Source: Deroplatys truncata (Eukaryota > Arthropoda > Insecta > Mantodea > Mantidae). From it: a stretch of 64,000 nt of DNA. A program made the position numbers and the translations under genes. The stretch is from positions 56,962,539-57,026,538 of the forward strand of contig CM060976.1 of the NCBI GenBank assembly GCA_030765065.1, in the 5' to 3' direction. Positions 1,574 to 62,096 of this stretch are shown here, in pieces. How positions within the stretch are numbered: position 1 is the stretch's first letter; each line of letters begins with the position of its first letter. Under the pieces are notes generated by a model. The model saw nothing but the letters and a program-made list of their open reading frames with translations, made no database searches and was not told the origin of the DNA.

Positions 1574-2320
1574 CTATATTTCTACTTTCTCTACCGCGTA
1601 TATAGTAGGTAGAAAAGGTATTACATTTCACCCAGAAATTCGATACATATTTCACCGGAAATACAAGGTTTGAGGCTCCCTGAATAAAAATAAAGTATTT
1701 TTAGAAAAATGTCTGTGAACAGCATAGCTGAATATCGAAAAGTCGGTTATATACTAAACTTAGAATTTGGATTAAAAAGTCATATATGAAAGATATTTAC
1801 ATGACAAATAAAATGTATATCTTAAATTTTCTAGGAATAGCCTGTAAAGTCTTCTTCATTCGAAAGGAATTTTGTATAATCTTGTATAACTGGTAAATGT
1901 TAAGTGGTAGACGAAAACGTACTTCACAAAAAATGTAGATGTGTTTAAAGCACACAATTTATTTTAAATAAGCTTTTTGTGGCATATACCATTTCTTATA
2001 TATCCGTTATTGAATGTTCGAATTGTTCATTTCTTGGTTATTTCTTGAAGTCCTGTCCACATTCAGTTGTTTCTTGCGATTGCATAGAAACAGTATGGAA
2101 TTTTAAGGCCAAATCATAGAGTCCAGTTCTTAAAAATTTGATTATCGCCATTGCCTGTGTATCCATAACAAAATGTGTAATGTAGCTACATATTTTTATA
2201 AAGTTTATTTGTATTAAAATATAGTAAATCGAAAATTAAGTTTTCGTGAGAGTAGTTCATACACCGACTAAAAACGTAGATGGTAGAGAAAGTAATGTGA
2301 ATGTATAACATAAGATTTTT
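1574..2320 (+). repeat. R1 repeat copy with hairpin module
   Basis: Starts with ctttctctaccgcgtatata, whose arm is answered by gtaggtagaaaaggt (a short hairpin), followed by the cccagaaattcgata block. An internal segment between about 1760 and 1770 is deleted relative to fuller copies. The copy ends with ggtagagaaagtaatgtgaa near 2284-2303. Orientation is the same as the first copy. Confidence 0.75.
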
Positions 2321-10048: not shown

Positions 10049-10063
10049 TAAATTACCGCACTA

Positions 10064-10549: not shown

Positions 10550-10773
10550 TAAGTTACCGTACTAGTTATACGAGTAGCTGTTGAATTGACATTCATGACG
10601 GGAAATCCGAGGTGACAATGGGCAAGTTCATTAGAAACATTTTATTGATAATTCATTCAAAATAATGAAACACACGATCGTGCAAAAGTAGTTTGTAATA
10701 AATGTATTTGAAATAAACAATAGATTATCGGAAATAGAATAGACTCGACTTCATCCTTTCTTTTCAAACCATT

Positions 10774-17990: not shown

Positions 17991-17996
17991 TACATT

Positions 17997-18815
17997 CATA
18001 TGACTTTCTCTACCCGCTATCTTTATTAGTGGGTGTACAAACTATTCTTACTAAAGCTTATTTTTCTATCCATTACATTTTAATCCAAATAAATATTTGC
18101 AGAAATAGCTACATTACACATTTCGCTATAGATATATGAAAACAACATACTCAAACGTTTATGGGCTGACGCTATATGCTGGCCTTAAAATTTCATACTG
18201 TTTACATGTCATCCGAGAAGCAACAAGACAATGGCAAGGAAATGAACAATCCGAAGCATTAATAACGGGTACTCTGAAACGGCTTATGCCACAAAAAACA
18301 TATTTTAAAAAAAATTGTGTGTTTTAAAGAAATATAACTTTTTGTGGTTCATTTTTGTGTACCTTTACCAGTTGTACAAGATTATACAAAATTCTTTCCG
18401 AATGAAAAGGAGTTCACAGGCTACTCTAAGAAAATTAAAAATATACATTTTATATGTCATGTAAATGTATTTAATATATGGTACTTTGATCAAAATCGTT
18501 AGCCATTTTTAGAAAATCAGAATTTTCGAAAAAATTTCCCTGTAAAGGGTAGTTGGGTTGGCGGGATTTTCTTGAAAATCCGCGTGTCGCATCCTTGGAA
18601 AACACTGAACTTAAGTAAAAAGTTTGGTACTTCTCCGACTTTTCGTTTTTGAGTTATGTTGTTCACAGTCACACAGACAGGCAAACACAAAGACCTGTTT
18701 CTAAAAATACCTTTTTTGTATTCAGGGGACCTCAAAACATGTATTTATAGTGAAAGCTCGGTATGGAATTTTTGGTTGGAATGCTTTACCTTCTCTACTC
18801 ATAGGTACGTGGTGC
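17997..18815 (-). repeat. R1 repeat copy
   Basis: Reverse-strand copy. It enters with catatgactttctctacccg (the 3' end of R1, reversed), passes gtaaagggtagttgggttgg and ttgagttatgttgttcacag, and leaves near ttggaatgctttaccttctc. It carries the 5' module but without a complete left hairpin arm. The 72-codon frame at 18517-18735 arises from this repeat. Confidence 0.75.
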
Positions 18816-20172
18816 TACATAAATAATGAAGATACCAAGAAAACTTGAAAGTGTTAACAACAACAGGTTAATGCACATAAAAAGTTCGTAGTCCAATCAT
18901 AGGAATTTCTCTAACCACCTTAAGGTTTTAACCATTCCGCAGAATATTTGTGAATGAATGCTTTTTTTTCTACTTCTTCTTAATCATAAAAATGTTACAT
19001 ATTTTATTATACCTACATAAAAGCATACGACAATCAAGTATTTATATTGGACCTAATATTTTAAACCTTATTTATGTCCTGCTGGGAAACAAAAGAACCG
19101 ATATAACATTTTCAAAGGCGTGTGGCGAGAAATATTGTAAAATTGTGACCAAAAATATGAATTACGTATTTCGTTAACGGCTAAAGCTACAAAAAATGTA
19201 GTTCTAACCAAGTTATCTATGTTAATAAACTTTACATTCTTTCTGCAGAAAAGTTTAGTGCAGGTCCTATACAAAATATTGTACAAAATTCAATCATAGT
19301 TAAGATGGTATTCACAGGCTATCCACATAAAATTAAGGAGTAAATTTTATTCGTACATTTTATTCCTCATATTAGCAAGTCAAACATGATGTTTTAATGA
19401 AACTTGTAGGAGCGGATTTTGAGAAAATAAAATCTTCGTTTCGCAATCTCGCAAGATGCTGTATTTAAACACCAGTTTGATATCCATCACTTCTTGGCCG
19501 TTAGAGTCCTGTGCCACGGTATAGAAAATCCTGGAATCAACTGCACGAAACGGTGAGTAACGACGTTTCGAGTATCACTTCCGAAATTGAGTTTGCAACA
19601 GCTGTGAATATGGGTACCGTTATTATTCAAGAGTATCCGCTTGTATATTACATTGGTGTCAATATGTAATATCGTAAGATAGAAAGTAAAACGTTTTTTA
19701 TCGCCAAATTTATTAAGTTCATAACGCAGTTTCTGTTGTGCTAATCAAGTAATATTTTTTCTTCTATATGTCTATTGAAAGAGGGTATTTGAGTTACTTT
19801 TGATGGTCTTTTATTACCACTATGATATGAAATCCGTTATTAAAATGTTTTACATCTTAAATCACATCTTAAGGAGCGATAAAAAACCCCAAATTTCAGA
19901 GGAAATACATACCTCCTCTTCAGGGTTCTACCGCCTGAGTGTTGTGTGTTCAAGTAATTCACGCGACAAATCACCGAAGAGCAGACACATCTACCTCAAA
20001 AACTTTGAGCTTTTATTTTTTTAGGCATGGCTTAATCCATAAATTGTGTTTATAAGAAACCAGTGGCTATTATATATTGGTTCGTATGGCCATAAATTAA
20101 AATTTAATTACACAAAAGAATGACTTCAAATATTATCCACAAGTTCGCGATCAACGAAGCTGCGAGTAAATT

Positions 20173-25800: not shown

Positions 25801-25872
25801 AGTAGTTCAACGCAGTGTTACTGCAACTGAGAATAAATCTGCTCATAACATTTTAAAAATACGAAGTGTTAA

Positions 25873-26722
25873 CATTCACATTACTTTCTCTACCTACTAT
25901 AATTTATTTTATACAGCTTCTACAGAATATTCTTACGAAACTTTATTTTTCTGTCTAGTTCATGTTAATCGAGATAAACGTTTACAGGAATAGTTTCATT
26001 ACACGTTTCGTTAAAGGCATAAGGAAGAAAGAGGAGACTGAATCAATAGCAAGATGTTTAAAAACTAGTTGCTACAGTTAGCCTAGAAATTCCACAATTC
26101 CACTTTCTTTCCACGACATCGAGAAAAACAACTGAATAACTACAGTACTTTAAAAATTGACCAAGTGTTGGAAAATTCAAACCAATAACAACGCATATCC
26201 CGGAAATAGCTAATGACACATGAATATATAGAGATCTATGATTTTGTGTAGTGTCTTTTTTCTATTTCTTATGGCTTACCGTTTATGCAAAATTATACAA
26301 AACTCCTTTTGAATGAAGAGGGCTTCATAGGATATTCCCAAAAAATTCAATATAATACATTTTATGTCATGTAAATATCCTAAACATATGGAATTTTTAT
26401 CAAAATCCTTAGAGCCAGTTTTGAGGAAATTGAAAATTTCCAAACACTTACCACGTAAAGGCTATTTTGGGATTTGGGAATTTCTTTGAAAATATTCTTG
26501 TCATATCTTTGGAATATGCTGTACCTAAATATCAAGTTTGGTATTTATGGACATTTTGTTTTGAGTTTGCGATCACATGCGAGCGGCTGGCACGTATTTT
26601 TTCTTAATTTTTAAATCAGGAGTCTCAAAGCTGTACTTCCGGTGAAATCTCGAAATAGAATTGTTGTGTGGAATGCAATATCTACGCTTATACCAAGTAG
26701 ATATGTAGTAGAGAAAGTAAAT
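25873..26722 (-). repeat. R1 repeat copy
   Basis: Reverse-strand copy entered through cacattactttctctaccta and left through gtagtagagaaagtaaa. The diagnostic ataggatattcccaaaaaat, ggctattttgggatttggga and cgaaatagaattgttgtgtg blocks lie between them. Confidence 0.75.
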
Positions 26723-31533: not shown

Positions 31534-32004
31534 AGACGAACTTGAACCGTTGGAACTATTGCTAAAGATAACCATTTTCCCCACCTTTGGTGCTCACCAC
31601 TTCTCGCACCATACTCCCCGCTATCCAAGCTGTCATATATGAATGGATTTAGCAGTTATGCAGTAGGCCCTCGTCCTTCTTGGACTATGCAGCACAGAGT
31701 TTAAAATGTTTTCTTTCAATAGCACTGCAATAATAAGGCAAACAACTTGTTTACGGTCGATACATTATCTATTTATTACTAAAGTATTTAACAATAATTT
31801 ATTTTTATTTAAACATCTTGCTTGATACAAAATACTGCGAGAAACTAAAAGAGCACACAGGATTATATCAAAGTGAAAAGTTAAAAAATAAAATTACAGT
31901 AACTGAAGCTGTTATATAAATATACAAAAGAATCTGTAAATATATCACAGCTTTTAGGAAATTAAGAAACATCAAGTTTTAGAGAACAAAAGGCTTGCTT
32001 TAAA
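31534..32004. other. Unassigned AT-rich sequence
   Basis: No gene or recognised repeat. Confidence 0.5.
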
Positions 32005-32530
32005 GAAATTGTGTTTTTTTAATTTTTAGGTGGTACATTTTCGTCTATCGCTTAACGTTTACCAGTTGTACAAATTGATGCAAAATTCCTTCCGAATAAA
32101 GAGGACTTCCTAGGCTATTCCTTGAAATTGAAAGAAATACATTTTCTCATGAAACTATTTTGCACATATGTGGTATGTTAATCAAAGTTGTTAGGCATTT
32201 TTTTATAAAATCAACATTTTCGAAAAATGTTCCATATAAAGGGTATAGTTGTGGGTGGGGGATTTTCTTGAAAATCTTCGTGTTGCATTCTTGGAAGATA
32301 CTGCACTCAAATTCCAAATTTACTGTTTATTTGACTTTTTATTTTTAAGTTATGCTACTCACAGTCACACAGAAACATACTCACATTCACTTATATGCTT
32401 CCAAAAATGCTTTATTTGCATTCAGAGCGCCTCAAAACATGTATTTACGATGAAATCTCGATACCGAACTTTTGGGTGGAATGCAATATCTTCTCTACCT
32501 ACTATGTGCATGGTAGAGAAAGTAAAAATA
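32005..32530 (-). repeat. R1 repeat copy, partial
   Basis: Reverse-strand copy lacking the 3' third. It contains cgtctatcgcttaacgttta ccagttgt, gtaaagggtatag, aagttatgctactcacagtc, and ends in the complete hairpin cttctctacctactatgtgc atggtagagaaagtaaaaa. The Harbinger element begins soon after. Confidence 0.75.
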
Positions 32531-41974: not shown

Positions 41975-42812
41975 TATGTATTACATTCACATGACTTTCT
42001 CAATACTGTAACGCACATTAGTGGGCATTCAATTATTCTCAAAAAAATTTATTTTCCTATCTACTTCATTTTAATCGTGATAAACCTTTCCGTAAACAGC
42101 TGCATTACACATTTCGTTATAGTCAAATGTTTAAGAAGTGGACGTTATACGCTGGTCGTAAAATTCTACACTCTCTCCATGACATCGCGAGGAACAACTG
42201 AAAATCGAAAGGAGATAGAAAGAATGGTCTAAGTATTGAACAATTCGAACCATTAGTAACGGATATCTTGAAAACGGGTGTAGCCACAAAAATTTTATTT
42301 ATTTGAAATAAATTGAATGTTTTAAAGACATCTACGTTTTTGTGTAGTATGTTTTCGTCTATCACTTAACGTTTACCGTTAAGCAAAATTATACCTTGTA
42401 CATTTTCTTCCAAATGAAGGTGACTTCATAGTTTATTCCCAGAGAATTCAAGATATAAACTTTATTTTTCATGTAAATATAGTATTTTAATCAAAATCGT
42501 TAAATCCATTTTTCAAAAAATGAAACATTTAGAAAAATATTCCATGTAAAGGGTAATTGGGGGGAGCGATTTTCTTAGAAACCTTCGTGTGGCATCTTTG
42601 GAATATATCAAGTTTGCAATTTATCCGATTCTTCGCTTTAACTTATCCTGTTCACAGGCACATATACAAACTCGCGGATCTTTTTATAAAAATGCTTGTT
42701 TTGGATTCAGGGGGCCTCAGAACATGCAATTTCGGTGAAATCTCGCTATCGAATATTTGGGTGGAATGCAACACCTTCTCTACCTACTATGTAAGTATTA
42801 GAGAAGGTAAAA
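41975..42812 (-). repeat. R1 repeat copy with hairpin module
   Basis: Enters via cattcacatgactttctcaa and exits via the hairpin cttctctacctactatgtaa gtattagagaaggtaaaa. It contains all main R1 blocks, so it is one of the fullest copies. The 80- and 140-codon frames over it derive from the repeat. Confidence 0.8.
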
Positions 42813-43411
42813 GCTATGAGAGCATTCCACTCTCTTTGCATGTCCAGGACATAAAAAAGAATAACGAATTCCCATTTGAGAGAAGTATAAGTATTGGAAA
42901 ATTAAAAAAAATAACAAGAAATATCTCGGAAATGGTTATAAATTGTGTTTGTTTTAATGAGATATATATTTTTTGTTAGTAAAATGTTGTCTGTTGCTTG
43001 TGGTTTACCAGTTATGCAAAATTCATTCTGAACGAAGAGAACTTTTGGGGACATTCCCAGAAAATTAAGATATACATTTTACATGCTATGAAAGTATCTT
43101 AAACATATGGTATTTTAATCAACATCGTTACAACCATTTTGAGAAAATCAAAATTTTCGAGCAATGTTCCATGTAAAGGGTAGTCTGGGCTAGGGAAATT
43201 ATCTCGAAATACTTCGTGTCACATCTTTGAAAGATACCTAGTTTGGTGTTTATCCGATTTTTCGTTTTTGAGTTATGTTGTTCAAACACACACACACACA
43301 CACACACGCAGAGGGCCTCAAAGCATGTATTTTCGGTGGAATTTCGATATCGAATTTTTGGGTGGAATGTAATGCTTCTCCTACTTGCTATAGTGGAGAA
43401 AGTAAAAATGT
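42813..43411 (-). repeat. R1 repeat copy, partial, in tandem with the previous copy
   Basis: Follows the previous copy head to tail, starting at gagcattccactctctttgc and ending gtggagaaagtaaaaatg. The same sub-block arrangement (ctctttgcatgtccaggac, ataacgaattcccatttgag) recurs at 60.2 kb. A CA microsatellite lies at 43284-43309. Confidence 0.75.
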
Positions 43412-44144
43412 AAACTGTAAGCAAACAAATTAAAGTAAATAAATTACTACACCGGTTAAGATGCACGCAATCTGAGAAAATCCATGTTCTAATACAAAAT
43501 ATAAGCGCAAGGAGAAAAGAGAGATACGAAAAACCCCAAAGGCGTTTGAGCGATCAATTTTGAAGAGGCGCGATTAGATCTACGCTCTAAAACTTGTGTA
43601 ATCGATGTTTGCTTTTGTATAAATTTAAAGAGTGGAAGCTCACCAGCTGTTGACGAATTGTTCCTAACGGTGAGAGAGACAAGAGAAACAAGTGCTTCTC
43701 TTGTGATGCTACAAGTTGTCACATTATGGATGTTCTGACGAACATATGATGATACTGAATCTTGCGAGAGAGCAAAACCATGTTCATATTGGACAAACTT
43801 AGGGAACAAATATCAATTAGCGGGTGAGTTCAACATTTCTGCGATATATATTCCGTCAGGTGGAAAAAAGCCAGCTTACATTACGCAACAAGCCAGAACA
43901 GGTACATTAGTGTTACTACATCGTGTGGCGTTTGTAGTCGGTAGCACGGTGTAACTTTGAAGTAGAGGTTTAGTTTATGCAGTACTTCACATCTTTATCC
44001 ACGCCCTTTCAATTAGTAAAATGTCTGACATGTTTTAACAGACAAATATGTTTGGCTGCTACGGAGTTTTGAACTCATCATTTGGAAATCTTTAATCTTA
44101 CTGTTAGGTTAACTGGTGGCTTAGTTAGGAAAGAAAAAGTCTGA
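43412..44144. other. Unassigned sequence with a 106-codon ORF
   Basis: A minus-strand frame at 43489-43809 encodes 106 residues (begins MFPKFVQYEHGFALSQDSVS). I do not recognise it. It lies between two R1 copies, with no promoter or partner visible. Confidence 0.3.
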
Positions 44145-45012
44145 TTTGTTACATTCACAGGGCTTTCCCTACCCTCATCGCTTATTAGTACATATGCAAA
44201 TTTTTAGTACGGAAGTTTATTATCCTATCTGCTTTACTTTAATTGAGCTAAACCTTTGCTGAAATAGCTGCATACATTTCGCTATATATATACAATGGAA
44301 ACATTATATTCAAATATTTTAGAAGTTGACGCCATATGCTGGCTCTAAAACTCCATACTCTTTCCGTATAATCGCGAGAAACAATGAAAATCAACAGGAC
44401 TTGAAAAGAGTGGCTAAATGTTGACGAATTCGAACCATTAATAACAAATATCTGGGGAATGGTTGGTGCCACAAAAAATGTTTTTGAAATAAATGCGTTT
44501 TAAAGAGATGTATAGTTTTTGTATAGTACGTTTTTGTGTATAACGTTTAGCAGCTATACAAGATCATATAAAATTCCTTGTGAACAGAAAAGATTTCACA
44601 GGTTATTCCCATAAAATTCAAACTATACATTTTATTCGTTATACATACACCTTTAATGTTTGGTATTTTAATAAAAATCGTTGGAGCCATTTCTTAGCCA
44701 ATCGAAAATTTCGAAAAATCTTCCATGTAAAGGGTAGTTTGTGGTGGGGGTATTCTTTTGAAAATCTTCGTATTCCATCTATGGAAGCTACTGAACCTAA
44801 TACCAAATTTGGTGTTTATGCGACAATTCTTTTTCAGTTACGTTATTCGCGCGCGCACGCACACACAAGTACTCACACACGCATACATACACACACACCT
44901 TTTTCTAAATTTTTGGGGAGATTCAGGAGACCCGAAAACATATATTTCTGATGAAATCTTGGTATCGAATTTTTGGGTGGAATTTAATACCTTCTCTGCT
45001 TCCTAGGTACAC
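44145..45012 (-). repeat. R1 repeat copy
   Basis: Enters at cattcacagggctttcccta and exits at gaataccttctctgcttccta-type text. It contains gtaaagggtagtttgtggtg and gaatttttgggtggaattta. Frames at 44580-45006 arise from it. Confidence 0.75.
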
Positions 45013-46728
45013 AGAGCGCCAAAGAAAATCTTCGGCGGATTTTGTATCGTTTTCTGCGGTCTTTTGAGGCGTGTACTTCACGTTATCTATCGCAGAGCGC
45101 GGTGGCTTGATAACACAACAATAAGGGGCAAAAGAGGGGAGGTTGGTGACTTTGGTTTTCTTGTGTTCTTTAACCCAAAACATGTTTATTGTCTCAGAAC
45201 CAGTCTGCCGTATACTAGCGAAATTACTCGTGGACATATCGTGGGTATGTGGGAGCTGGTCGCACTGTTACAGCAAATGCAACGAAAAGTGCATAAAAGT
45301 GTTTTATAGTAAATTACTGGATAAAAATATTCCAAGAAAGTGGGTAAGACGGTCTACATTCTCGTCAGAAAGTGGGCACTCCCCGTGAAACATGCGCAGA
45401 TGATGATATTCGTTTACTAAATGCAAATTACTCTTTGGTTTAATTGACTGATCGTGTTTGGAAACTAGAGATAGATATGCATATGGTTTACCGAATATGA
45501 CATACTTATTATGGCAATAAAATTGGGTTATATTTTTGTCTATATTCCTAATATATTACTATGATGAGCAATATGTTATTAACCAATTAGAGTTTGAATT
45601 AGAGGGAAAACATTATGCTTTATTCATTTATTTATTTATTGTTTAGTTACGTTTGCTTCTATGCAACAACAGGCATTGATATTACTGTGGGAATACAATT
45701 CTGTTTATTTTTATTATAGAATGCTGCCTTGCTATGTATTTCATGAATACCATTCAAGCTTTAATTTGCACCCCCTGAAAATCTCACACTACACATTCTA
45801 CATTTCGCTAACCTGGGCGCTCATCAAGTTTTCCCCTTAGCTTTTAACCCTTTCAAAGGCATGTCTTGCACTAGCCGATAAGGTATGGTCTACCAATAAC
45901 GATAAGAGGTCTGTATGACAAACTAAATGCACTCACTCTACCTCCTTCTCTTTTAGCCAATACGATCGCGAGCGTAAACGTATATTTCTTTCTACGCCAA
46001 TTTGTAACCTTTGTTATGGTTATTGTGTAACTATTTAGCAGAAGGACTGGCGCACCCTTGCACCGTGGCCTAAAGGAACCAATCAAATGGCGATGGCTTA
46101 GTAAGGCCACTACAACGATAAATAATGTCAGATAGGCGCGAGGTGCAGTGAGGTTTCCTTTGGCGCTCTTTGTACGTGGTAGAGAAAGTAAAGCGTTTTT
46201 CCTCCAGGTGGGACTCCCCACCCCATACAAGTTCATATAAACACTCGCCTGGCTAAAACACTAACGAATAGACTGTGGGTCTAAGCATTTAACCAGAAAG
46301 TTTCCATGGTTTCTTTTCCGTTAACTTATCCAATTCTGCATAACAGTCACTAGGCGAATTGATAAAGTCATTTGATGAAAAGTTATTCACAAGTCAAGGT
46401 TTTAGGTTTTAAAGTAGAAATAAAGTACGAGAAAGAGGCTGGATGGGAAATCAATTCCAAGTTTATTATTTATAATTTTTAGGCGTCGCAGCTGCCATGC
46501 ATGGGAACGTGAGTTTTCTTGGTGGAAAACTTGTCAATCTTCATGGAACTGCTTACAGTACCTTCCCAAACGGGCCAAAAATGATGCGTAATGTGCTTCA
46601 AGTATGACAAGTTTTGCCATTTTCTAGGAAGGCTAAGAAAAGTAAGACATAGCGCGTATCACTTTTCCGGCTAAGAACATAGTGATTGGTATATTAATAG
46701 GGCTTTCACCAGCTTTTTTTTACAGTTT
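45013..46728. other. Unassigned sequence
   Basis: No gene recognised. A 121-codon minus frame (45871-46236) has no known motif. The stretch at 46175-46240 contains gtggtagagaaagtaaa, which resembles the R1 end word, and tcatataaacactcgcc, which could be a TATA-like site; neither is supported by anything else. Confidence 0.35.
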
Positions 46729-50028: not shown

Positions 50029-50825
50029 ATTAATGTTCCTTTTAATTAGACTGCATCGCTTACTATTGCAAACAGTTTGAAGGATTATATCTTCAAATGT
50101 ACTAGAAGTGCTGTAAATATAACTATTTTAGTTGAATAGCAATTCGTGCTTATTTTTGAACCGTATTTTAAACTCTGAGTAACGCGATGTTTTTATTTAA
50201 ACACTTGCTGTACCCATTTTTTTGCACAATAGTTCGCCGGATTAATTGTATCTCCTTTAGATTCTCTGCTTGAATTCTGGTGATTGTTGGATCTTGTGCT
50301 ATACTTTCTGAATTTTAAATAGCCTTATAGTCAATAATGATTTGGGTTGGTCTAAATAAATGTAGAAGAAATTAGTAAGAAATAAATGAAAAATAACAAA
50401 TAAGTCAAACCCTTAGTAGAAAGAATTGAGAGGACAGCTCAAAGATGAAAAAGCAAATATTGTATGGCCGAGGAAGTAGATCTTGCAAATTATAATGTGC
50501 AAATAAAATGGACACTAAGTAAAAAACAAATACATGCTTTGAGATTATCTACAAAGCGCGGGTCAAGTAATCTTTATTCTTTTGAATTCTATAAATGTGA
50601 TAAGGGACAGACAAAAACTCACTCCTAGAAAACATTTAGACCGGTTAAAATATACAATTTATGTCGAATTTATTTTTCGTAGCATTGGCCGATTGTTTTC
50701 CATCTTCCTCCAATCCAAACGCTGTTAACGATGCAACATTTACCCACTTTCTTTCAAACTTTAATCACTTCTTTACAATATTGCTGTGTAGATTTATATG
50801 ATATTTCGTCTCTAGACATAGTATT
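50029..50825. other. Unassigned AT-rich sequence
   Basis: No frame over 60 codons and no match elsewhere in the window seen. Confidence 0.5.
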
Positions 50826-51065
50826 GTAACGCGCCGGCTATGCCTTATGGTTATCAGGAGATTGGCGCCGGGCAGTGCAGAGATAAATAGAGATATGTAG
50901 CGTTCCCAATCTGCGTAAACACCAGATGTGCTATGGAGAGATAACCAGAATCCTCTGGAAGTTTCCCTTTTCTCCGCCTCTGGAACGTTCTAGAACTCTA
51001 ATCAGCTGCTATATAAGCGAGCATTCTCGCTAGTGTGCCAGTTATTATCTATAAACAGTAAAACT
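50826..51065 (+). mobile_element. LTR-like element (family Y), truncated
   Basis: tgtaacgcgccggctatgcc start, ggcgccgggcagtgc, attctagaactct-type words, and a TATA box at 51010-51017. Similarity stops shortly after the TATA box, where R1 sequence begins, so the copy is cut off before the minisatellite position. Confidence 0.55.
51010..51017 (+). promoter_or_regulatory. TATA box of LTR-Y
   Basis: tatataag followed by cgagcattctcgc, as in the two other copies. Confidence 0.5.
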
Positions 51066-51074
51066 ATTTTTTAA

Positions 51075-51270
51075 GTTCAGTATCTTCCGGGGATGCAATA
51101 CGAAGATTTTAAGAAGATCCCCTCACCCCAATCTACGCTTTACTTCGAAAATGTTTATTATTGTTTTATGTTCTCAAAAATGTCCCTAACGATTTTTTAA
51201 GGTGCTGCCCCTGTTCACTTGTTTCTCGCAGTGTCGTAAAAAGAGTGGTAATTTAAAGACCAGCAAAGCC
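51075..51270 (+). repeat. R1 fragment
   Basis: Contains ttcagtatcttccggggatg, then a jump to gttcacttgtttctcgcagt and aatttaaagaccagcaaagc, so it is internally deleted. It sits between the truncated LTR and a SINE. Confidence 0.65.
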
Positions 51271-51284
51271 ATTAACTTTTAAAC

Positions 51285-51553
51285 ATCTCTGTATCGATTC
51301 GGTCCGAGGTCCCGGGATCAAAACCAGCGGAGAGCCACGGAGCTTTTCGGGCGCAAAAATGCTTAGCACGGCTTTCTTCGGAAGGGAAGAAAAGGCGGTG
51401 GTACCGTGTCGTAGATTTACAGCACGTAAAGGAACCTCAAGTCTCATAAAAAAGGCCTCTGAGCAAAACTTTTGGGTCTTTCACACTCCATACACAATGC
51501 TGCGCTAAGAACCACAGTAGTCAAAGAGCGTCCACAAATAAAACTCAATTTAA
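51285..51553 (+). mobile_element. tRNA-related SINE family C copy
   Basis: Plus-strand copy with a worn head (gaggtcccgggatcaaaacc), then aaaaatgcttagcacggctt tcttcggaaggg, gtagatttacagcacgtaaa, aggcctctgagcaaaacttt, and the end ccacagtagtcaaagagcgt ccacaaataaaac. This copy shows the fullest 3' end. Confidence 0.65.
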
Positions 51554-51559
51554 TTATCG

Positions 51560-53110
51560 AATCAGTTTCCTCTAATACCCTTATAGCTACAATAGAATGT
51601 AAAATGATACTATTTCTGCAAATGTTTATCTCGATTAACATGAAGTAGATAAGAAAATAAGCTTTCATTTGAATATTCTGTAGAAGTTATATATAAATAT
51701 AGATCTGTGGGTAGAGAAAGTCATATGAGTATAACACATCAGAGAGACTTTTATTTTTTCTACTACAAAGTATAGTAGGTATAGTATGTATAGTAAGTAG
51801 GCGAAGTATAGCATTCCTCCCAAAAATTGATACCAAGATTTTACTGGAAATACATGTCTTGAGGCGCCCTAAACGCAAATAAAGCATTTTTGGAAATATA
51901 TCGTGTGTTTATGTGTGACTGTCTGTGAACAGCATAAATCAAAAACGAAAAGAAGATACCAAGTTACCAAGTTTAGTATCTTCCAAGGATGCGACACGCA
52001 GATTTTCAAAAAAATCAGCCACTTCCATCTACCCTTCACTTGGAACATTTTTACAAAATTTTGATTTTCTAAAAAACGGCTCTGACAATTTTGATTAAAG
52101 TGCCACATGTAAAAGATATTTACATGACAAATAAAATGTATATCGTGAATTTTCTGGGAATAGCCTAGGGAGTCCTCTTCAATCGGAAGGAATTTATGTA
52201 ATCTTGTAAAACTTGTAAATGTTAAGCAATAGACGAAAGCGTACCACACAAAAAATGTAGATCTCTTTAAAGCTCACAATTTACTTAAAATATACCGAGT
52301 AGGATGGATCAGGCAGTTGCGTCTGTGGCCCGCATACGGGAGATCGTGGGTTCGATTCCCGCGGCCGACCTTCCGGACCCACGGTTTTTTTTTTTCGGGA
52401 GATTTTACCGGGTCAGTATGCAAATGCTAAGGCTCATTGACTCCCCCGAACTTCTCTTCCCTCGTTCACTCATTTATCTTCGTCTTTCACGTTACAGGCT
52501 GATTCCGGTTCTGCGTAGGACGAATGCGAACATATGGCTTGCATGTTGGAATTTCTTTTCGGCCCCATCAAATGGAGGCCCCTCGTGTCTCCGCTGCTGG
52601 GTCGAGCTTTCCCCGGTCTCCTCCAGAGTGGACCCTCCAGTGGTTTGGTGAGGCTGCCTTCAGCGCTCTCCGGCTGGGTGGTCTAGCTTGTAAATGTTAG
52701 GGACCTCTGCGCGTCTCTGTTGCATACGTCGGCCGGTCCTGCAGCCCATACGTCAACTGCGGTTCCTTTATCTAATTCCGTTTTTCCCGAGGGTTAATGC
52801 ACATCAGATCCCTGTGTGGGTTGAGGTGTTAGGTGTCACCTCCGTAACACAATCCTAATGCTAATTCTGTTGAAAATAATTTTTTTCCGACATTAGTCGT
52901 TTCTGAGATAACCGTTATGAAACGTTCGAATTGTTCAATACTTGTCATTCTATTAAAGTCCCATCGATTTTCAATTGTTTCTCGCAATTGCATTGAGACA
53001 GCATGGAATTTTAAGGCCAGCGTATAGCGTCCAGTTCTTAAACATTTGGCTATCGCTGTTCTCTTCGATTCTGATTTTTTGGGTTAAAATGCAAAAATTT
53101 ATCTTATGCA
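51560..53110 (+). repeat. R1 copies interrupted by a SINE
   Basis: R1 3'-end sequence (51560-51740) runs into the hairpin module (ctactacaaagtatagtagg, 51755 onward), the attgataccaagattttact block and the main body to about 52290. The body resumes after the SINE at 52870 (ttctgagataaccgttatga aacgttcgaattgttcaata) to about 53090. Confidence 0.75.
52295..52868 (+). mobile_element. tRNA-derived SINE family A copy inside R1
   Basis: Head ccgagtaggatggatcaggc, box B gggttcgattcccgcggccg, a ttttt-rich body with ccgggtcagtatgcaaatgc, and an end cctccgtaacacaatcctaa tgcta. R1 is continuous on either side when it is removed. The flanks (ttaaaatata and ttgaaaataa) suggest a worn target-site duplication. 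Confidence 0.8.
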
Positions 53111-53739: not shown

Positions 53740-56700
53740 TGGCGTCAGTCTTTTACTTTCTCTACGACGTACATAGTGTGCATTCCACACAAAAATTCGA
53801 TACCAAGATTTTACCGGAAATACATGTTTTGAGAACCCTGAATAAAAATAATTTTTACTTTCACTGATAAGTATGGTAGGTGGGGGAAGTATTGCATTCC
53901 AACCAAAAGATTAGATACCGAGATTTCACCGAAAATACAGGTTTTGAGGCTCCCTGTATCCAAACAAAGCATTTTTACTTTTTACACAACGTATAGTAAG
54001 TAGGGTAAGTATTGCGTTCCACCCAAAAATTCGAAATCGAGATATCACTGGAAATACGTAGTTTGAAGCCCCTGAATAAAAAAAATTTAGAAAAAGGACT
54101 GTGTGTGTCTGTGAACAGCATAATCCATGAACCAACGAAACTTGGTATTTATGTTCAGTATCTTTCAAAGATAAGACACGAAGATTTGCAAGAAAATCCC
54201 CCATCGTTTTCATCGAAAAATTTTCGAAAGTTTTTATTTTCTCAAAAATGGCATTAACAATTCTGAATAAAATATCATATGTTTTAGGATATTTTTATGG
54301 CAAATGAAATATAGAAACGTCCCCAAAAGTCCTCTTCATTCAGAATGGCTTTCACATAACTGGTAAACCGTAAACGATAGACACAATTTTACTACTCAAA
54401 AAATGTATATCTCGTTGAAACAATTTATGTCATATACATTTTTTGTGGCCTAAATCATTTACGAGATATTCCTTGTTATTTGTTTGAATTTTCCAATACT
54501 ATGCTTTTACGCAAATGGGAATTCGTTATGCGTTTTCTTTATGTGCTTGACTTGCAAAGAGAGTGGGATGTTCCACATAGCAACCAGCTCTTAAAAGATT
54601 TGACTATAGCTTAAAGCCTACCATATTCCCCTTGCACCTACAAGAAAATTAGGAATAAGATAGTTACTGCAAATGTTTATCTCGATTAACATGAAGTAGA
54701 TGGAGAATAAGCATTTGTAAAAATAGTTTGTACAAGAGTAGAGAAAAACACTGTGAGTAGAACACATCAGAGTTTTGGAAACATGTCCGTGTGTTTGTGT
54801 GTCTGTGAACACGACAACTCAAAAACGAATAGTAGGATAAATACCAAACTTTTCATTTAGGTTCAGTATCTTACAAAGCTGGGACACGAGGACTTTCAAG
54901 AAAATCCCCCACTTTTAACTAACCTTTACATGGAATATATTTCGAAAATTTTGGTTTTCCTAAAATGGCTCTAACGAATTTGATTAAAATACCATATGTT
55001 TAAGACATTTTTATGGCAGATGAAATGTATATTTTGAATTTTCTAGAAATATTCCCAAAAGTCCTCTTCATTCTAAATTATTTTTGCAGAGTGGTGAGCC
55101 GTAAGTGATTGACAAAATGTTAGTATAAAATGTAGATCTCCTTAAAACACACAATGTATGTCATATACATATTTTTTGTTGAGTGAAACATTTCCAAGAT
55201 ATTCTTTGTTTTTGTTTGAACCTTCCAACACTTACACCTTTTCTCAAATGAGAACATTATTGAAGATTTTCAAGAAAATCCCCCTATCCGAGGCTGCCCT
55301 TTACATGGAAGATTTTTCGAATTCCTTTCTTTTTTTTCTTACTTTTATTCATTTTGTTTTTGCAAAAATGGTTGTAACGATTTTGATTAAAATAACACAT
55401 ATTAAAGCTATTTACATTACAAATAAAACGATTATCTAGAATTTTCTAGGAATAGCCTGTAAAGTCCACTTCATTTGAAAGAAGTTTTGTATAATCTTGT
55501 ATAACTGGTAAATCTTAAGCGATAGACGAAAACATACTTCACAAAAAATGTAGATCTCCTTAAAACCATAATTTCTTTCACATAAGTTTTTGTGGCATAA
55601 GATATTTTTGAGATATCCGTTATTATATGTTCGAATTGTCCACTTCTTGGTAATTCTCTTTAAATTCCTGTCAACATGCACTTGTTTCTCGCGATTGCAT
55701 GGAAATGGTATGAACTTTTAAGGCCAGCATATAGTGTGCACTTTAAACACTGGACTGTCGCTGATCCCTTTGTATCTATGACGAAATGTGTAGTGTAGTT
55801 ATTTCTGCAAAGGTTTATTTGGATTAAAATGTAGTAGAGAGAAAAACGGGCTTTAGTAAGAATAGTTTGTATACCCACTAATATACGATAGAGGGTAGAG
55901 AAACTCATGTGTATGTATCACATCAGATTTTTACTTTCTCTACTGCGTGTAGTGAGTAGGGGAGCTGTTTTATTTCATCCAAAAATTCGATACCGAGATT
56001 TCACCGGAAATAAATGCTATGAGGTACCCTGAAAAAAAAAGATTTTTAGAAAAACTCGCGCGCGTGTCTGTGAACAGCATAACTCAAAAACGAAGAGTCG
56101 GTAAATACTAAACTTGGTATTTAGGTTCAGTACCTTCCTAAGATGCAGCACAAATATTTTCGAGAAAATCCTCTTCCTCAGACTACCCTTTACATGGAAA
56201 AGTTTTGGAAAGTTTTTATTTTGTAAAAAATGGCTCTAACGATTTTGATTAAAATGTCATATGTTAAAGATATTTGCGATACCAATAAAATGCATATCTT
56301 GAATTTTCTGTGAATAGCCCGTGAACCCCACTTCCTTTGGAATACATTTTATCTTATATAACTAGTAAACGTTAAGCGATAGACGAAAACGTACTACACA
56401 AAAAGTACATCACTTTAAGACAAATTTATTTCAAATAACATTTTTGAGGCATCCGCCATTTATGAGACATCCATTATTAGTGGTTCAATTGTCCAACGCT
56501 TCGTCATTATTTTTAAGTCCTGTCTACTTTCAGCTGTTTCTCGTGACGTCATGGAAGGAATATAGAACCTTTATGCCAGCGTATAGTGTCAAGTTCTTAA
56601 ACATTTTTCTATCGCCATTACCTTTATATCTATAACGAAATGTGTAACGCATTTGTTTCCGGAAACGTTTATTTTGATTAAAATGAAATGGGTGGGAAGC

Positions 56701-57340
56701 TAAACTTTCGTAACTTTGTATACCCAGTAATAAGCGATAGAGGGTAGAATATGTCATGTGAATATAGCACATCAAGTTTTTAGAAAAACGTCCATCCGTG
56801 CGTGTCTATGAGTGTGTGAGTGTGAACAGCATAACTCAAAAACGAAATGTCGGATAAATACCAAATACACAAAGATTTTCAAGAATATCCCCCACTGCAA
56901 ATTACCTTTAGATGGAAGATTTTTCAAAATTTTGGATTTTCTCAAAAAAAGACACTAAAGATTTTCATTAATATGTATTATATTTAAGACGTTTACATAT
57001 TAATTAAAATGAATATCTTGAATTTTCTGGAAACAGCGTGTGAGCTCCTTTCATTAGGAAGGAATTTTGTATAATTTTGTTTAACTAGTAAACCATAAGA
57101 CAGAGACAAAAATGTACTGCACAGAAAATGTAGACCTCTTTCAGACACACAATTTATTTCCAATAATATTTCCTTGTGGCGTCATCCCTTTCTGAGATAT
57201 CCGTTCTCATAGGTTTTTACACTTTTTAAGTATTGCCAACGTTTAGTTGTTACTAGTTATGCCATGGAAAGAGCATGGTAATTTAAGGCCTGTATATAGC
57301 GACTAGAGTTTAAAAAGTAGAGAAAGTCATGTGAATGTAT
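53740..57340 (+). repeat. R1 tandem block, about four units
   Basis: Units follow one another on the plus strand at about 53750-54770, 54770-55930, 55930-56775 and 56775-57340, joined through the end word gtagagaaa(g/c)tcatgtgaatgt followed by cacatcag and a T-run. The first unit carries the 5' hairpin module three times in a row; the third carries it once; the second and fourth lack it. All ORFs in the block are short and shared with R1 copies elsewhere, so they are not genes. Confidence 0.8.
53752..54090 (+). repeat. Triplicated ~115-bp R1 5' module
   Basis: Three successive modules begin at about 53752 (actttctctacgacg), 53857 (actttcactgataag) and 53975 (actttttacacaacg). Each continues gcattccacccaaaaattcg ataccgagatttcaccggaa with ttttgaggctccctg and ends in an A-rich stretch and a T-run. 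Elsewhere the module is single or absent. Confidence 0.8.
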
Positions 57341-57489
57341 CACATCGTAAATTATTTTATTAAGTGCTGAATTCGGCTTCAATTTTTGGTAGTATGCCTT
57401 CATTTTGAGAACTAAACTTCGATAGGAAAAAGTAGTGAATCCAGAACCCGAAGCACAAAAATTATTGCATTGGCGTGCTGGGCCAAAAA

Positions 57490-57841: not shown

Positions 57842-58575
57842 GCTTTTACCTTCTCTATCACGTAGATAGTAGGTATAGAAAGTTTTGCACTCCATAAAAA
57901 AAATAGATACCGGGATTTCACCGGAAATACAAGTTTTGGCGCCCCACGAGCTAAAGAAAGCATTTTTAGAAAATGGTATGTGTGTGTGTCTTTGTGTGTA
58001 TGTTTACAGCATAACATAAAAATGAAAAGTAGGATAAATACCAAAGTTGGTATTCAGGTTCAGTCCCTTCCAAAACTGCGACACAAAGATTTTCAAGAAA
58101 ATTCCCCCAGGGCAAACTACCTTTACTAGGATTTTTCCTGAAAGTATTGATTTTCTAAAAATAGCTATAACGATTTTGATTAAAACAGCATGTATTAAAG
58201 ACACTTATATGAGAAATAAATGCATATCTTGAATTTTCTGAAAATAACCTGTGAAATGCTCTTCGCTCGGAAAAAATTTACACAATCTGGCATAACTTGT
58301 AAACTTTAAGGAAAGGCGAAAACTACCATATAAAAGTGTATCTCTTTAAAACACAATTTATTTCATATAACGTTTTTATAATATCCGCCATTTCCAAGGT
58401 ATCCGTTATGAATGGTTTGAACTATTCAATAGTTAAGTAATTATTTTATAGTCCTGTCGATTGTCATTTATTTTTCGCGATGTCATGGAAAGAGTATAGA
58501 ATTTAAGGCAGCATATAGCGTCAGTTCTTAAACATTTGACTATCGCTGTTCTCTTTGTATCTATAACGAATATTG
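57842..58575 (+). repeat. R1 repeat copy with hairpin module
   Basis: Starts ccttctctatcacgtagata gtaggtatagaaag and proceeds through gataccgggatttcaccgga, aagattttcaagaaaattcc and aaatttaaggcagcatatag. It stops near 58575, lacking the final end word. Confidence 0.75.
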
Positions 58576-59744
58576 TGGTTGTAATATTTGTTTTATTAGG
58601 CACCACATTGCTGGATTCCAATTAATATTATTTATTGATTATGCAGCCGGCGAATAACGAATTTTGTGTCTTCCTGTATGTCGCTGCGTCAATGTTCTCT
58701 CCTTGTCGCAGGACCTCGGTTGTTTTCTGTATTTCTTGACTATCTGCATGAAACTGGGTTTGGAGATCTCAGTTGGAAAGGACATTGAAGACACTAAGTA
58801 AAGATATATGAAGTATTTAATCATGAAGATGTCAGGTAAAGAATAAATGTTAAGATAGGTACTGTTAAACACTTGTTTGTTTATTATCACGTTTAAACTC
58901 CATATATAAAGACAAACTTTTTTTAGAAGTTTATGGCCACATATGCAAAGTTAGGATTACAAGATAGAGCTTCACCTTTAATAGAGCAGTATAAATAAAA
59001 ATTAAATAAGTCATTTTTATAAATTAACGAAAAAACCAAATAATTTAAATTACTATAAAGATAGATCATTCCTATTAACAACGGCATTTCCTCTTTATGT
59101 TTCTATTTAGCATTGAATTTACTGTTATAACACTTTAGCTCGATTTGGTAACTTCGCGCACACGATTATAATATAATTCCTTGTTGATCCATTGTTCATT
59201 TGGCGCGGAAATTTGCTGCAAAGTGACGCAGGTTTGTCATACGATGCAATTCACTAGACGACTGACTTTAGCGTTCCTCCATCAGCTTATATACCTGGGT
59301 TCTCCGTGGTTTGAGTTTTCTTGTAAATTTTCTCATTGGTTGGTGAGAGCCGCAAGTTACAAGTTTGACAACATTTGAAGGGCGATTAGGCTTTGGTATT
59401 CGTCGTTTCAAAACCACGTGGGAGAAAACAATTCAGGATTCCCCGGTTTCAATATTACTTTGGGATTCCTTAGGCGTCTGTTGCATAAGTCTTTCTAGAA
59501 CTAAGCGCTGATAAAGAACTTTGGTTCTGCAGCCAACTTTCTCCTAGTCATTGTATGTTACTAGCTTGTGGAAATCGTATGGTCTTATACATGCGTAAAA
59601 TACATCTAACAAAATATTAAATAAAATAATGTAGTTTGTTTATACACTGATATAGTTATACATTGATATTACACTAATTAAATCTAATACATACATGATT
59701 ATAAATGTGATAATAGTACAGCAGAAAATACTGTCTCAGTGTGT
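58576..59744. other. Unassigned sequence
   Basis: No gene recognised; a 65-codon frame at 59181-59378 has no motif. The stretch 58870-59100 is strongly AT-rich. Confidence 0.45.
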
Positions 59745-59875
59745 AATGCAGCTACTTCCGGAAGGTCTGTATCAAACTTAAGTAAACAGGAAAATAAACT
59801 TTCATAAGAATAATTTATACCCCCACTAATACGCGATAGAGAAAGTTATGTAAATGTAACACATCAGAATTTTAG
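59745..59875 (+). repeat. R1 3'-end fragment
   Basis: gtgtaatgcagctacttccg, aaaataaactttcataagaa, then gatagagaaagttatgtaaa tgtaacacatcag: only the terminal 130 bp of R1. Confidence 0.7.
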
Positions 59876-59999
59876 TTAGCAACCTATTAAGAGGGAAATG
59901 CGTCTTAGGTCCGTCTTCTAAGTAAGCGTAACTGATCATGTATTTATTAGATAGAAAAGCTATCTTTGGTGTAGTCTCAATGAAAAAAAAATCTGATGT

Positions 60000-60335
60000 C
60001 TTGCATTCACATGACTTTCTCTACTCTTGTGCAAACTATTTTTACAAGCGCTTATTCTCCATCTACTTCATGTTAATCCAGGTAAACATTTACAGAAACT
60101 ATGTTAACTATTGCTAATTTTCTTGTAGATTCAAGGAGAATATGGTAGGCTTTAAGCGATAGTCAAATCTTTTAAGACCTGGTTGCTATGTGGAGCATCC
60201 CATTCTCTTTGCATGTCCAGGACGTACAAAAACGGAAAGAATAACGAATTTCCATTTGAAAAAAGGGTAAGTATTGGAAAATTCAAACAAATAACAAGGA
60301 AGAACTCGGAAATGGTTCACTCCTGAAAAAAAGTA
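60000..60335 (-). repeat. R1 copy, right-hand part before the Tc1 insertion
   Basis: cattcacatgactttctcta ctc through ctctttgcatgtccaggac to gaactcggaaatggttcact cctg. The copy resumes at 61581 after the Tc1-like element. Confidence 0.78.
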
Positions 60336-61580
60336 CACTACGTGATCAAAAGTATCTGGGCACCTGGCTAAAAATGAAGTACAAGTTCGCGGCGTGCTCC
60401 ATCGGTAATGCTGGAAGTCAATATGGTGTTGGCTCACCCTTAGCCTTGATGACAGCGTCCACTCTCGCAGACATACCTTCAATCAGGTGCTGAAAGGTTT
60501 CTTGGAAAATGGCAGCTCATTCTTCACGGAGTGCGGAACTGAGGAGAGGTATCGATGTAGGTCGGTGAGGCCTGGCACGAAGTCGGCGTTCCAAAACATC
60601 CCAAAGGTGTTCTATAGAATTCAAGTCAGGACTCTGTGCAGGCCAGTCCATTACGGGGTTGTTATTGTCGTGTAACCTCTCCGCCACAGCCCGTGCAGTA
60701 TAAACAGGTGCTCGATCGTGTTGAAAGATGCAATCGCCATCCCCGAATTGCTCTTCAACAGTGGGAAGCAAGAAGGTGCTTAAAATATTAATGTAGGTCT
60801 GCGCTGTGATCGTGCCACGCAAAACAACAAGGGGTGCAAGCCCCCTCCAGGAAAAACACGATCACACCATCACACCACCACCACCGAATTTCACTGTTGG
60901 CACTACACACGCTGGCAGATGACGTTCATCGGGCATTCGTCATATCCACACCCTGCCATCGGATCGCCACATTGTGTACCGTGATTCGTCACTCCACACA
61001 ACGTTTTGCCACTGTTCAATCGTGTAATGTTGACGCTCCTTACACCAAGTGTGGCGTCGTTTGGTATTTTCCTGCGTGATGTGTGGCTTATGAACAGCCG
61101 CTCGACCATGGAATCCAAGGTTTCTTATCTCACGCCTAACTGTCATAGTACTTGGAGTGGATCCTATGCAGTTTGGAATTCCTGTGTGATGGTCTGGATA
61201 GATGTCTGCCTATTACTCTTTATGACACTCTTCAAATGTCGACGGTCTCTGTCAGTCAACAGACGAGGTCGGCCTGTACGCTTTTGTGCTGAACATATTC
61301 CTTCATGTTTGCACTTCACTATCCCATCAGAAACAGTGGACCTAGGGATGTTTAGGAGTGTGGAAATCTCGCGTACAGACTTCTGACACAAGTGACACCC
61401 AATCACCTGACCACGTTCAAAGTCCGTGAGTTCCACGGAGCGTACCATTCAGCTGTTTCACGATGTCTAATGACTAGTGATGTCAAGGATAATGAGTACC
61501 AGGCACTAGGTGGCGCACAAATCACCTACGATGAAAAACGTATGTTTGTGCGGTGTCCGAATACTTATGATCACATAGTG
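60336..61580 (-). mobile_element. Complete Tc1-like element, inactive, TA target site
   Basis: The ends cactacgtgatcaaaagtat (60336) and, inverted, cactatgtgatcataagtat (61580) are the terminal repeats. Each is flanked by TA (60334-60335 and 61581-61582), the Tc1/mariner target duplication. The 1,245-bp length is normal for a Tc1-like element with one gene. The R1 repeat on both sides reads through when the element and one TA are removed. Confidence 0.93.
60418..61448 (-). pseudogene. Tc1-like transposase, DD34E, with stops and a frameshift
   Basis: The N-terminus, MVRSVELTDFERGQVIGCHL CQKSVREISTLLNIPRSTVS, is the paired-type helix-turn-helix; GRPRLLTDRDRRHL follows. A frameshift near 61170 leads into TVRREIRNLGFHGRAAVHKP and WSDESRYTMWRSDGRVWI, which holds the first catalytic Asp. 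In the same frame come a TGA, MPDERHLPACVVPTVKFGGG GVMV, a second TGA, FSWRGLAPLVVLRGTITAQT, QHDRAPVYTARAVAERLHDN and WPAQSPDLNSIEHLWDVLER, with Asp-to-Glu spacing 34. A third TGA precedes AAIFQETFQHLIEGMSARVD AVIKAKGEPTPY. All three stops replace expected Trp codons. The gene is the right length, so decay came by point changes, not deletion. Confidence 0.93.
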
Positions 61581-62096
61581 TATATGACATAAATTGTGTG
61601 TTTTAACGAGATCTGCATTTTTGCGTAGTAAAATGTACTCTTAGATTTACCAGTTATGTGAAAGTCATTCAGAATGGACAGGACTTTTGGGGACATTCCC
61701 AGAAAATTCTATATATACATTTCATTTGCCATGAAAATATCTTAAACATATGATATTTTAATAAAAATTGTTAGAGCCATTCTTCAAAAACAAAAATTGT
61801 CGAAAAGTGTTCCATGTAAAGGGTAGTCTGGTGTGGAGAATTTTATTGAAAAGTTTGGTGTTGTATCCTTGGAGATACTAAAATCAAATGCGAAGTTTGG
61901 TATTTATCCGACTTTTCGTTTTTGAGTTATCTGCTCACAGACAGACAGACAGACACACACACCGATATGTTTCGAAAAATGCTTTGTGTGGATTCAGGGC
62001 ACCTCAAAACACGTATTTCGGTGAAATATCGCTATCGAATTTTTGGTGGAAGGCAATACTTCCCCTACTTATTATACGTAGTGGAGAAAGTAAAAA
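61581..62096 (-). repeat. R1 copy, remainder after the Tc1 insertion
   Basis: Starts tatgacataaattgtgtgtt and continues through gtaaagggtagtctggtgtg, ttgagttatctgctcacag, gaatttttggtggaaggcaa and gtggagaaagtaaaaag. A short GACA run lies at 61940-61953. The 115- and 62-codon frames come from the repeat. Confidence 0.78.

Follow-up and report, generated by a model that had tools for sequence, protein, structure and literature searches.

R1, an abundant repeat of the mantis Deroplatys truncata, is very probably a HINE, that is, a gene-less derivative of about 0.85 kb of a Helentron (Helitron2-type) element, which would be mobilized by Helentrons of the same family and nests in copies of itself at runs of T. 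It was studied in a stretch of 64,000 nucleotides of contig CM060976.1 (assembly GCA_030765065.1, positions 56,962,539 to 57,026,538 of the forward strand), referred to here as the window, and in further loci of the same genome. The assignment is carried by ends that are shared with a protein-coding partner having an open reading frame (ORF) with recognizable domains, by T-runs at most edges, by the lack of any target duplication other than T's in the aligned nests, and by a rule that relates the strand of an inserted copy to its site. A first-pass annotation of the window had proposed a non-autonomous DNA or Helitron-like element that matched no family it could name. The Helitron-like part of that proposal holds, and the kind of element can now be named as DINE-1/HINE. 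The part that pointed to a DNA transposon with terminal inverted repeats does not seem to hold, because the repeats are subterminal and the sites checked showed no target duplication except of T's.

Structure and abundance of R1

A profile was made from 19 complete units of this genome; it matches the window at 28 places on both strands (E up to 0.001), covering 13,156 of the 64,000 bases (20.6%); at least a dozen copies on both strands and roughly a fifth of the window had been estimated before. The initial extraction had yielded 23 units, but four of them (two from L016 and one each from L003 and L029) were left out of the profile because their ends came from different copies or the unit was interrupted. 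The 29 units of the window and the loci that align with the profile over its full length measure 809–946 bp, and the typical length of ~850 bp agrees with the 0.85 kb given earlier. The window holds 18 instances of the end motif ACTTTCTCTACC with up to one mismatch, where chance would give 0.36, and nine of the post-terminal palindrome with up to three mismatches, where chance would give 0.02. A 1,461-base query from the R1 array finds 25,675 candidate places across the 4.29-Gb genome. Forty of these were scored, and those outside the window are 73–80% like the query over their main stretch. The window is probably R1-rich: in L031–L050, 20 loci that had been retrieved for a different purpose and are a weak substitute for random stretches, R1 makes up 1,124 of 69,411 bases. 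There are two main subfamilies, an older one (GGTAGAG..., as in window unit D) and a younger one, R1b (AGTAGAGAAAGTCATGTGAGTG...). At least 90% identity to the R1b consensus is found in 17 of 21 R1b-like pieces, eight of which went into that consensus. IMG/VR contigs contain no exact match to the R1 3' end, Rfam has no match in the window, and no Pfam family was found at E 0.01 in the ten ORFs compared, out of 22 in the window that have 120 residues or more.

The consensus begins after TTTTT and reads ACTTTCTCTAC(C/T)-acgtac...-GGTAGAGAAGGT ... (G/A)GTAGAGAAAGT-CATGTGAATGTAACACATC-AGATTTTT. It contains subterminal inverted repeats (subTIRs) of 11–12 bp, the 5' one directly after the T-run and the 3' one starting ~39 nt before the end of AGATTTTT. 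Among the 29 complete copies, the 11-mer ACTTTCTCTAC is exact in 17 and GTAGAGAAAGT in 10, and at most one mismatch is present in 25 and 16, respectively. The 12-bp inverted repeat reported by the first-pass annotation is therefore real, but it is 11–12 bp long, subterminal, and often imperfect, with a mean of 9.7 of 12 bases paired within one copy. The 5' subTIR is part of a hairpin, ACTTTCTCTACC-n12-GGTAGAGAAGGT, that had gone unnoticed and is stronger than the 3' one (z −4.06, with none of 200 shuffles as stable); the R1b form has a z of −2.43. The 3' palindrome ends ~9 nt before the element end and usually takes the form ATGTG-n7-CACAT, which is exact in 18 of the 29 copies. A perfect 6-bp stem, ATGTGA...TCACAT, had been described; it exists in two copies, but the norm is a 5-bp stem (five of six pairs in 18 copies, fewer in nine), so that at least five pairs are kept in 20 of 29. 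The support for this palindrome is its conservation and position, not its energy.

The edges of R1 are sharp, not ragged, and consist of T-runs: TTTTT is followed by ACTTT...CACATC and then most often by AGATTTTT. AGATT starts 26 of the 63 sequences that follow R1 3' ends. Three of 67 5' ends were repeats of one junction inside Helentron copies and were dropped, leaving 64. The loci behind these end counts were mostly picked for holding R1, and the counts are not genome frequencies. At least four T's precede 49 of the 64 5' ends (chance 1.4%), and a run of four T's lies within 12 nt of 55 of the 63 3' ends (chance 9%). The base before the T-run is A in 33, C in 11, and G in 5 of the 49 cases (background A 643, G 332, C 271); judged by these counts, it is not clearly unlike the background, and no clear target motif is seen beyond the T-run. 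A consensus and an alignment of edges had been suggested as a check for target duplications. A profile was built from the 19 units, and where nested R1 sites were compared base by base with empty copies, no duplication other than T's was found.

Helentrons sharing the ends of R1

A search of the genome with PF14214 (Helitron Rep) gave at least 152 matches, with 150 of 291 candidates scored, and among the matches listed at least 18 lie in open frames of at least 2000 residues. The form of Rep motif 2 was read from the printed residues of the matches. A serine between G and P (RGSPHxH) is typical of Helentrons, and RGLPHAH is the Helitron form (PMC4067079). RGSPHEH is present in all ten loci L051–L060, whose frames are 428–2441 residues long, and in a copy on contig C9. 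Eight of the other 20 Rep loci have RGLPHAH (L031–L034, L037, L041, L046, L048), five have decayed variants of the motif, and in seven the match stops before or at the motif.

The C9 Helentron (L062/L063) extends from 628 to 11036, which is 10.4 kb, and contains one open ORF of 2287 residues. Its 5' edge is TTTTTT followed by ACTTTCTCTACTACGTATAGTAAGTAGGGG, and its 3' edge is GTAGAGAAAGTTATGTGAATGTAACACATC followed by AGATTTTT; these termini are the R1 5' end and the R1 3' subTIR with its palindrome. Both termini are common to all four Helentron copies compared, which lie on four contigs and are 97.9–99.5% identical over ~2.5 kb on the 5' side and 99.4–99.7% over ~1.05–1.23 kb on the 3' side. 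From the N terminus, the protein consists of a Herpes_teg_N match, a charged repeat, DUF6570, Rep, a PIF1 helicase, and a C-terminal AP-like endonuclease, all in one frame. The Pfam matches include Helitron_like_N (1.1e-27) and PIF1 (1.8e-28), obtained with a query that omitted the last 34 residues, and a C-terminal Exo_endo_phos_2 match (2.6e-06) whose 27.7 bits are just above the cut-off of 27.4; no transposase domain is among them. Matches in the PDB include Helraiser and PIF1 helicases. In the L063 locus, which holds the 3' end, a second long ORF, for instance one for RPA, was not seen; the longest plus-strand frame between the main ORF and the 3' end is 76 residues. When the protein was compared with the window by tblastn, no match was obtained.

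The non-coding leader before the ORF is R1 sequence, namely positions 1–620, again 1–694, and then a piece of 316–521; two R1 5' ends are carried in all four copies. The 11-bp subTIRs ACTTTCTCTAC and GTAGAGAAAGT are identical in both R1 consensuses and in the Helentron. According to published rules, identical subTIRs of at least 11 bp define a family, and at least 80% identity over the last 60 bp defines a subfamily (PMC4067079). Because the subTIRs are identical but the last 60 bp are 72% alike, R1 belongs to the family of the Helentron and not to its subfamily. The first-pass annotation had called for a longer relative with Rep and helicase that shares both ends, and the Helentron is such a relative at the family level. 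To judge from its sequence, a Rep-helicase-endonuclease Helentron with nearly the same ends is the probable driver of R1.

Several further features of these loci were recorded. The Herpes_teg_N match covers residues 30–175 of the protein (L062:3241-9999; E 1.2e-08), with a candidate QC and a later DPH. We take this family to have a cysteine-protease fold. A protease-like domain in the Helentron protein would be reminiscent of the OTU-like proteases that other Helitron-like elements are described as having (PMC4067079). The N-terminal domain is separated from DUF6570 by a long repeat of ~21 residues, for example SERKRNKEYMEQAREDEEYKK (L062 about 4031–4855; protein ~265–600), and L062 also has long antisense frames of 322 and 240 residues. 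A second lineage, the canonical Helitron with RGLPHAH, is present in the same genome, and six of its loci (L031–L034, L037, L041) each have at least one stop. In L061 (C4:46956000-46964999), the Rep fragment of a canonical Helitron ends abruptly beside a truncated R1 on the opposite strand, as if R1 had inserted into an old Helitron or a deletion there had joined the two.

Self-nesting at T-runs and alternative explanations

R1 copies are found split at a T-run, with the two halves flanking another R1 or a Helentron. R1 itself contains T-runs at about positions 117–121 and 617–623 and A-runs at about 106–113, 487–492, and 789–793. All 13 two-sided nests fit a strand rule. Eight have the inserted copy in the same orientation at a T-run (in the window, C in B and B-to-D in A; L010; C13; and at C5 a/b, c/d, d/e, and g/Helentron), and five have it in the opposite orientation at an A-run (L003 and L016, about 791; L006, 470/488; L023, 478/494; L027, 112/55). 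The 13 nests are not independent, as four are in one array. A set of 25 R1-internal junctions comprises all those flagged by a script in the window and in loci up to L069, and several are two sides of one nest. Of these junctions, 24 lie within ~6 nt of at least four T's on the same strand or at least four A's on the opposite one, when positions are compared with the list of runs by eye. By a rough count, such runs with this margin add up to about one quarter of R1 on either strand. The excess is therefore large, though the margin is generous.

The interval 53740–57340 of the window had been taken as one R1 interval, but it is a compound of several units and halves (Table 1). These follow one another in the order of a nest: A5, B5, C, the rest of B (54771–55924), D, and the rest of A (56777–57346). 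When the flanks of C are joined and the 3' T-run is trimmed, they match uninterrupted R1 copies in long alignments at up to 83%, and the joined flanks of the L016 nest reach 85%. An array with a period of 120 bp (53779–54088) consists of R1 5' modules cut at the T-run. At C13, an R1 and a Helentron lie together inside the T-run at 117–121 of another R1, and the same site is used in L010. The C5 locus (L070, L068, L069) is made of R1b copies and can be written in brackets as a(b)a', c(d(e)d')c', f, a 25-bp gap, g(Helentron)g', h, i, and an unmatched tail. The point at which the halves of one copy join is the T-run around position 622. One sequence variant is found, as judged by inspection, in both halves of a and of c, and the other in both halves of d and of g. 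Nests of this bracket-like form yield the relative order of insertions at single loci.

If R1 is a HINE, a Rep/PIF1-helicase/AP-endonuclease protein from full-length Helentrons of the same family would recognize the shared ends, that is, the 5' subTIR with its hairpin and the 3' subTIR with its palindrome. One strand would be copied by rolling-circle replication and inserted into a T-run, on the strand that reads T in the orientation of the element. End recognition, rolling-circle replication, strand transfer, and cutting of the target by the endonuclease are steps that we infer from the family by analogy. Because R1 has T-runs and A-runs of its own as well as flanking T-runs, new copies would frequently insert into older ones or next to them. 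Insertion into a T-run would give nests in the same orientation or head-to-tail arrays, and insertion into an A-run would give nests in the opposite orientation. A more tentative extension, which we regard as rather doubtful, is that the T-runs at ~117–121 and 617–623 are built-in landing pads of R1 and its Helentron that are used repeatedly, so that the family grows as self-nesting arrays. In that extension the choice of T-runs as targets and the strand rule would both be due to the endonuclease domain, and copying of a nest from its outer 5' end could create new composite autonomous elements. The Helentron with an R1 half (1–620) before its second 5' end, found in four of four copies, would be such a product.

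Several observations weigh against the HINE interpretation or parts of it. The folding energy of the 3' palindrome is no better than that of shuffled sequences (z −0.75, 55 of 200 as stable), the two subTIRs do not covary significantly within R1 copies (Fisher p 0.08, shuffle p 0.225), and 15 of the 64 5' ends are without a run of four T's. The 72% over the last 60 bp is an ungapped value obtained with both R1 consensuses (gapped, 48/64 and 50/63 columns), and the well-matched 3' stretch is confined to the last 39 bp (36–37 of 39, or 28–29 of 31 without the 8 bp of the AGATTTTT tail that was appended to both sequences). The candidate driver is thus one at the family level, and examination of a single partner family did not reveal the element that drives R1 itself. 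R1 copies are mostly old, 73–80% like the window unit over the main stretches scored, and the four partner copies compared are young. The nests were collected by eye from loci chosen for R1 or for a flanking Helentron. One of them, in L027, is imprecise, with ~57 bp of the target lost, and the exception among the 25 junctions (L028, position 157) has no T-run. For a half-unit at C5 (627–871), no 5' half was found in the 14 kb upstream of L068, which contradicts the prediction of strict nesting. Finally, fragments B3a and B3b are of different subfamilies, so B is either chimeric or two pieces, and the parse of B in the window is uncertain.

Copies of R1 occur alone on either strand and head to tail, as the first-pass annotation had stated. 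Its idea that R1 also expands in tandem is apt as a description but not as a satellite-like expansion, the evidence pointing mainly to insertion into R1's own T-runs or beside its own ends. Perfect head-to-tail junctions of CACATCAGATTTTT with ACTTTC are present in the window (55924/55933), L028, L064, and L069, and an R1 3' end stands directly before 8 of the 64 5' ends. These would be expected if rolling-circle replication read through the 3' terminator and produced several head-to-tail copies in one event. Bypass of the terminator has been invoked for tandem Helitron arrays (PMC4067079), and the unmatched C5 half-unit would be more easily explained in this way. We nevertheless consider read-through an unlikely source of the arrays. 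Alone, it gives neither the split copies (1–12x and 117–871; 1–62x and 627–871, with intact units between) nor the opposite-orientation nests at A-runs, and the neighbors in the window array, being of different subfamilies and no more alike than distant copies, do not resemble products of one event. Unit D is 67.8–77.8% like its array neighbors (four alignments of 248–581 bp) and 66.9–79.9% like copies at other loci (median 75.3%; 57 alignments of more than 500 bp, with several from some loci and with an overlap between L040 and L061).

With array neighbors no more alike than copies elsewhere, the array does not look like a homogenized satellite. That R1 is ordinary satellite DNA that has been scattered is very improbable, and this reading was rejected. 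It would account for the head-to-tail copies and for the 120-bp period, but that array is made of cut 5' modules, the sharp common ends with flanking T-runs are found on both strands, and they are also the ends of a protein-coding Helentron. R1 is not confined to head-to-tail arrays, since 39 of the 64 5' ends, at loci selected for R1, have no R1 match within 60 bp upstream (43 within 15 bp). Nor is there local homogenization, as tested on one unit of the window array; long homogenized arrays elsewhere were not searched for. A miniature inverted-repeat transposable element (MITE) derived from a cut-and-paste transposon with terminal inverted repeats was likewise rejected and is hardly credible. 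The 12-bp inverted repeats near the ends would suit it, and DINE-1 itself was once called a MITE (PMC2374699). Against this, the repeats are subterminal, the palindrome is at the 3' end only, nested sites gain nothing but T's relative to empty copies, and the coding element with the same ends has Rep, helicase, and endonuclease domains and no transposase domain among its Pfam matches.

Table 1. Matches to R1 and its 3' palindrome in the window, with profile positions of R1
Feature	Window position	Strand	Basis
R1 fragment A5, positions 1-120, 5' subTIR and 5' module	53755..53855	+	profile match
R1 fragment B5, positions 1-122, internal T-run at its end	53857..53977	+	profile match, nest alignment
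R1 unit C, positions 2-871, within T-run of copy B	53978..54768	+	profile match, flank joining
R1 fragment B3a, positions 116-610, read as B resumed after C	54771..55249	+	profile match, nest alignment
R1 fragment B3b, positions 233-871, 3' subTIR and palindrome	55262..55924	+	profile match, subfamily comparison
R1 unit D, complete 1-871, head to tail after previous 3' end	55933..56773	+	profile match
R1 fragment A3, positions 117-695 and 839-871, 3' subTIR and palindrome	56777..57346	+	profile match
3' palindrome CATGTGAATGTATCACATC, 6-bp stem in this copy	57328..57346	+	motif search
R1 positions 1-736, 3' truncated	57848..58574	+	profile match
R1 positions 116-864, without 5' module	490..1223	+	profile match
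R1 both ends (matches 1-207, 324-870), internal part missing	1584..2311	+	profile match
R1 nearly complete, 10-869	17986..18813	-	profile match
R1 positions 292-867	18889..19436	-	profile match
R1 nearly complete, 1-867	25867..26718	-	profile match
R1 positions 1-539	31986..32523	-	profile match
R1 complete, 1-870	41976..42808	-	profile match
R1 positions 1-662, adjoins 5' end of 41976..42808 unit, same strand	42823..43403	-	profile match
R1 nearly complete, 12-870	44144..45013	-	profile match
R1 pieces 375-553, 182-328, 603-707, 708-871, discontinuous	50533..51740	+	profile match
R1 positions 11-556	51784..52321	+	profile match
R1 positions 516-720	52865..53068	+	profile match
R1 3' end, 732-871	59738..59865	+	profile match
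R1 positions 528-871, 83% like part of unit C (about 54435-54776)	59995..60335	-	profile match, alignment
R1 positions 1-575	61529..62091	-	profile match

The window also contains two other tandem arrays. One has a 32-bp unit in ~48 copies with 79% matches (7149–8768), shows raised GC and AT skew, and has no R1 match. The other has a 75-bp unit (25 codons) in ~11 copies (28702–29508) with open frames of 166 and 186 residues on the two strands, and could be the remnant of a repeat protein.

Comparison with known systems

In some animal genomes HINEs rank with the most common repeats. They have nevertheless been annotated as MITEs, and their autonomous partners can be hard to find. The R1 family was not found in print by text search, a method by which long sequences are not usefully searchable. 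Canonical Helitrons begin with TC, end with CTRR, and insert between A and T (PMC3288121). R1 shows none of these features, starting with ACTTT... after a T-run and ending with ...CACATCAGATTTTT, and was rejected as a canonical Helitron. In mite HINEs, subTIRs of 12–15 bp lie 2–4 nt from the 5' terminus and 38–60 bp from the 3' terminus, and a palindrome of 5–10 bp lies 8–35 bp from the 3' terminus (PMC4067079); R1 agrees with this description in both its subTIRs and its palindrome. Insertion of HINEs and Helentrons into T-rich targets without modification of the site (PMC4067079) is also what is seen for R1, whose nested sites gain only T's, the L027 site with its loss being the deviation noted above.

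The likeness to HINE-Mo of the predatory mite was judged from the published description and not by comparing sequences. Like R1, HINE-Mo has subTIRs near both ends, a 3' palindrome 8–35 bp from the end, unmodified T-rich sites, and an autonomous Helentron with shared ends (PMC4067079). Its subTIRs are themselves palindromic, whereas the 5' subTIR of R1 forms a hairpin with a separate downstream copy, and the R1 partner differs from the HINE-Mo case in being less than 80% alike over the last 60 bp and in having no long second ORF such as RPA in L063 (PMC4067079). DINE-1/INE-1 of Drosophila resembles R1 in that the complement of the subTIR appears again just downstream at the 5' end as a nested inverted repeat, and in its 3' stem-loop, very high copy number, and clustering (PMC4067079). 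For the microsatellite and central repeats of DINE-1, the only possible counterpart in R1 is a GT-rich stretch at ~130–160, by description and not by sequence.

Cg_HINE of the Pacific oyster has a left module of subTIR and inverted repeat, a right module of subTIR and palindrome, and associated tandem repeats, as R1 does (PMC7492417). Cg_HINE has short satellite-like arrays within the element, placed between its two modules, whereas whole R1 elements nest in each other; the oyster study could not link an autonomous partner to Cg_HINE, whereas a partner at the family level was identified for R1 (PMC7492417). A high-copy HINE and young open-frame Helentrons of the same family are present together in this one genome, so that it becomes possible to test how Helentrons choose their targets, what their strand polarity is, and how their arrays grow.

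Composites formed by self-insertion, with several 5' ends, have been reported from Fusarium (PMC5148889) and maize (PMC3288121), so self-nesting as such is not new. The FoHeli Helitron2 elements of Fusarium oxysporum form composites with several 5' ends and one 3' end, as does the Helentron with two R1 5' ends (PMC5148889). FoHeli1 and FoHeli2 insert between TNAT and A (PMC5148889), whereas R1 inserts into T-runs, with frequent self-insertion in the loci examined.

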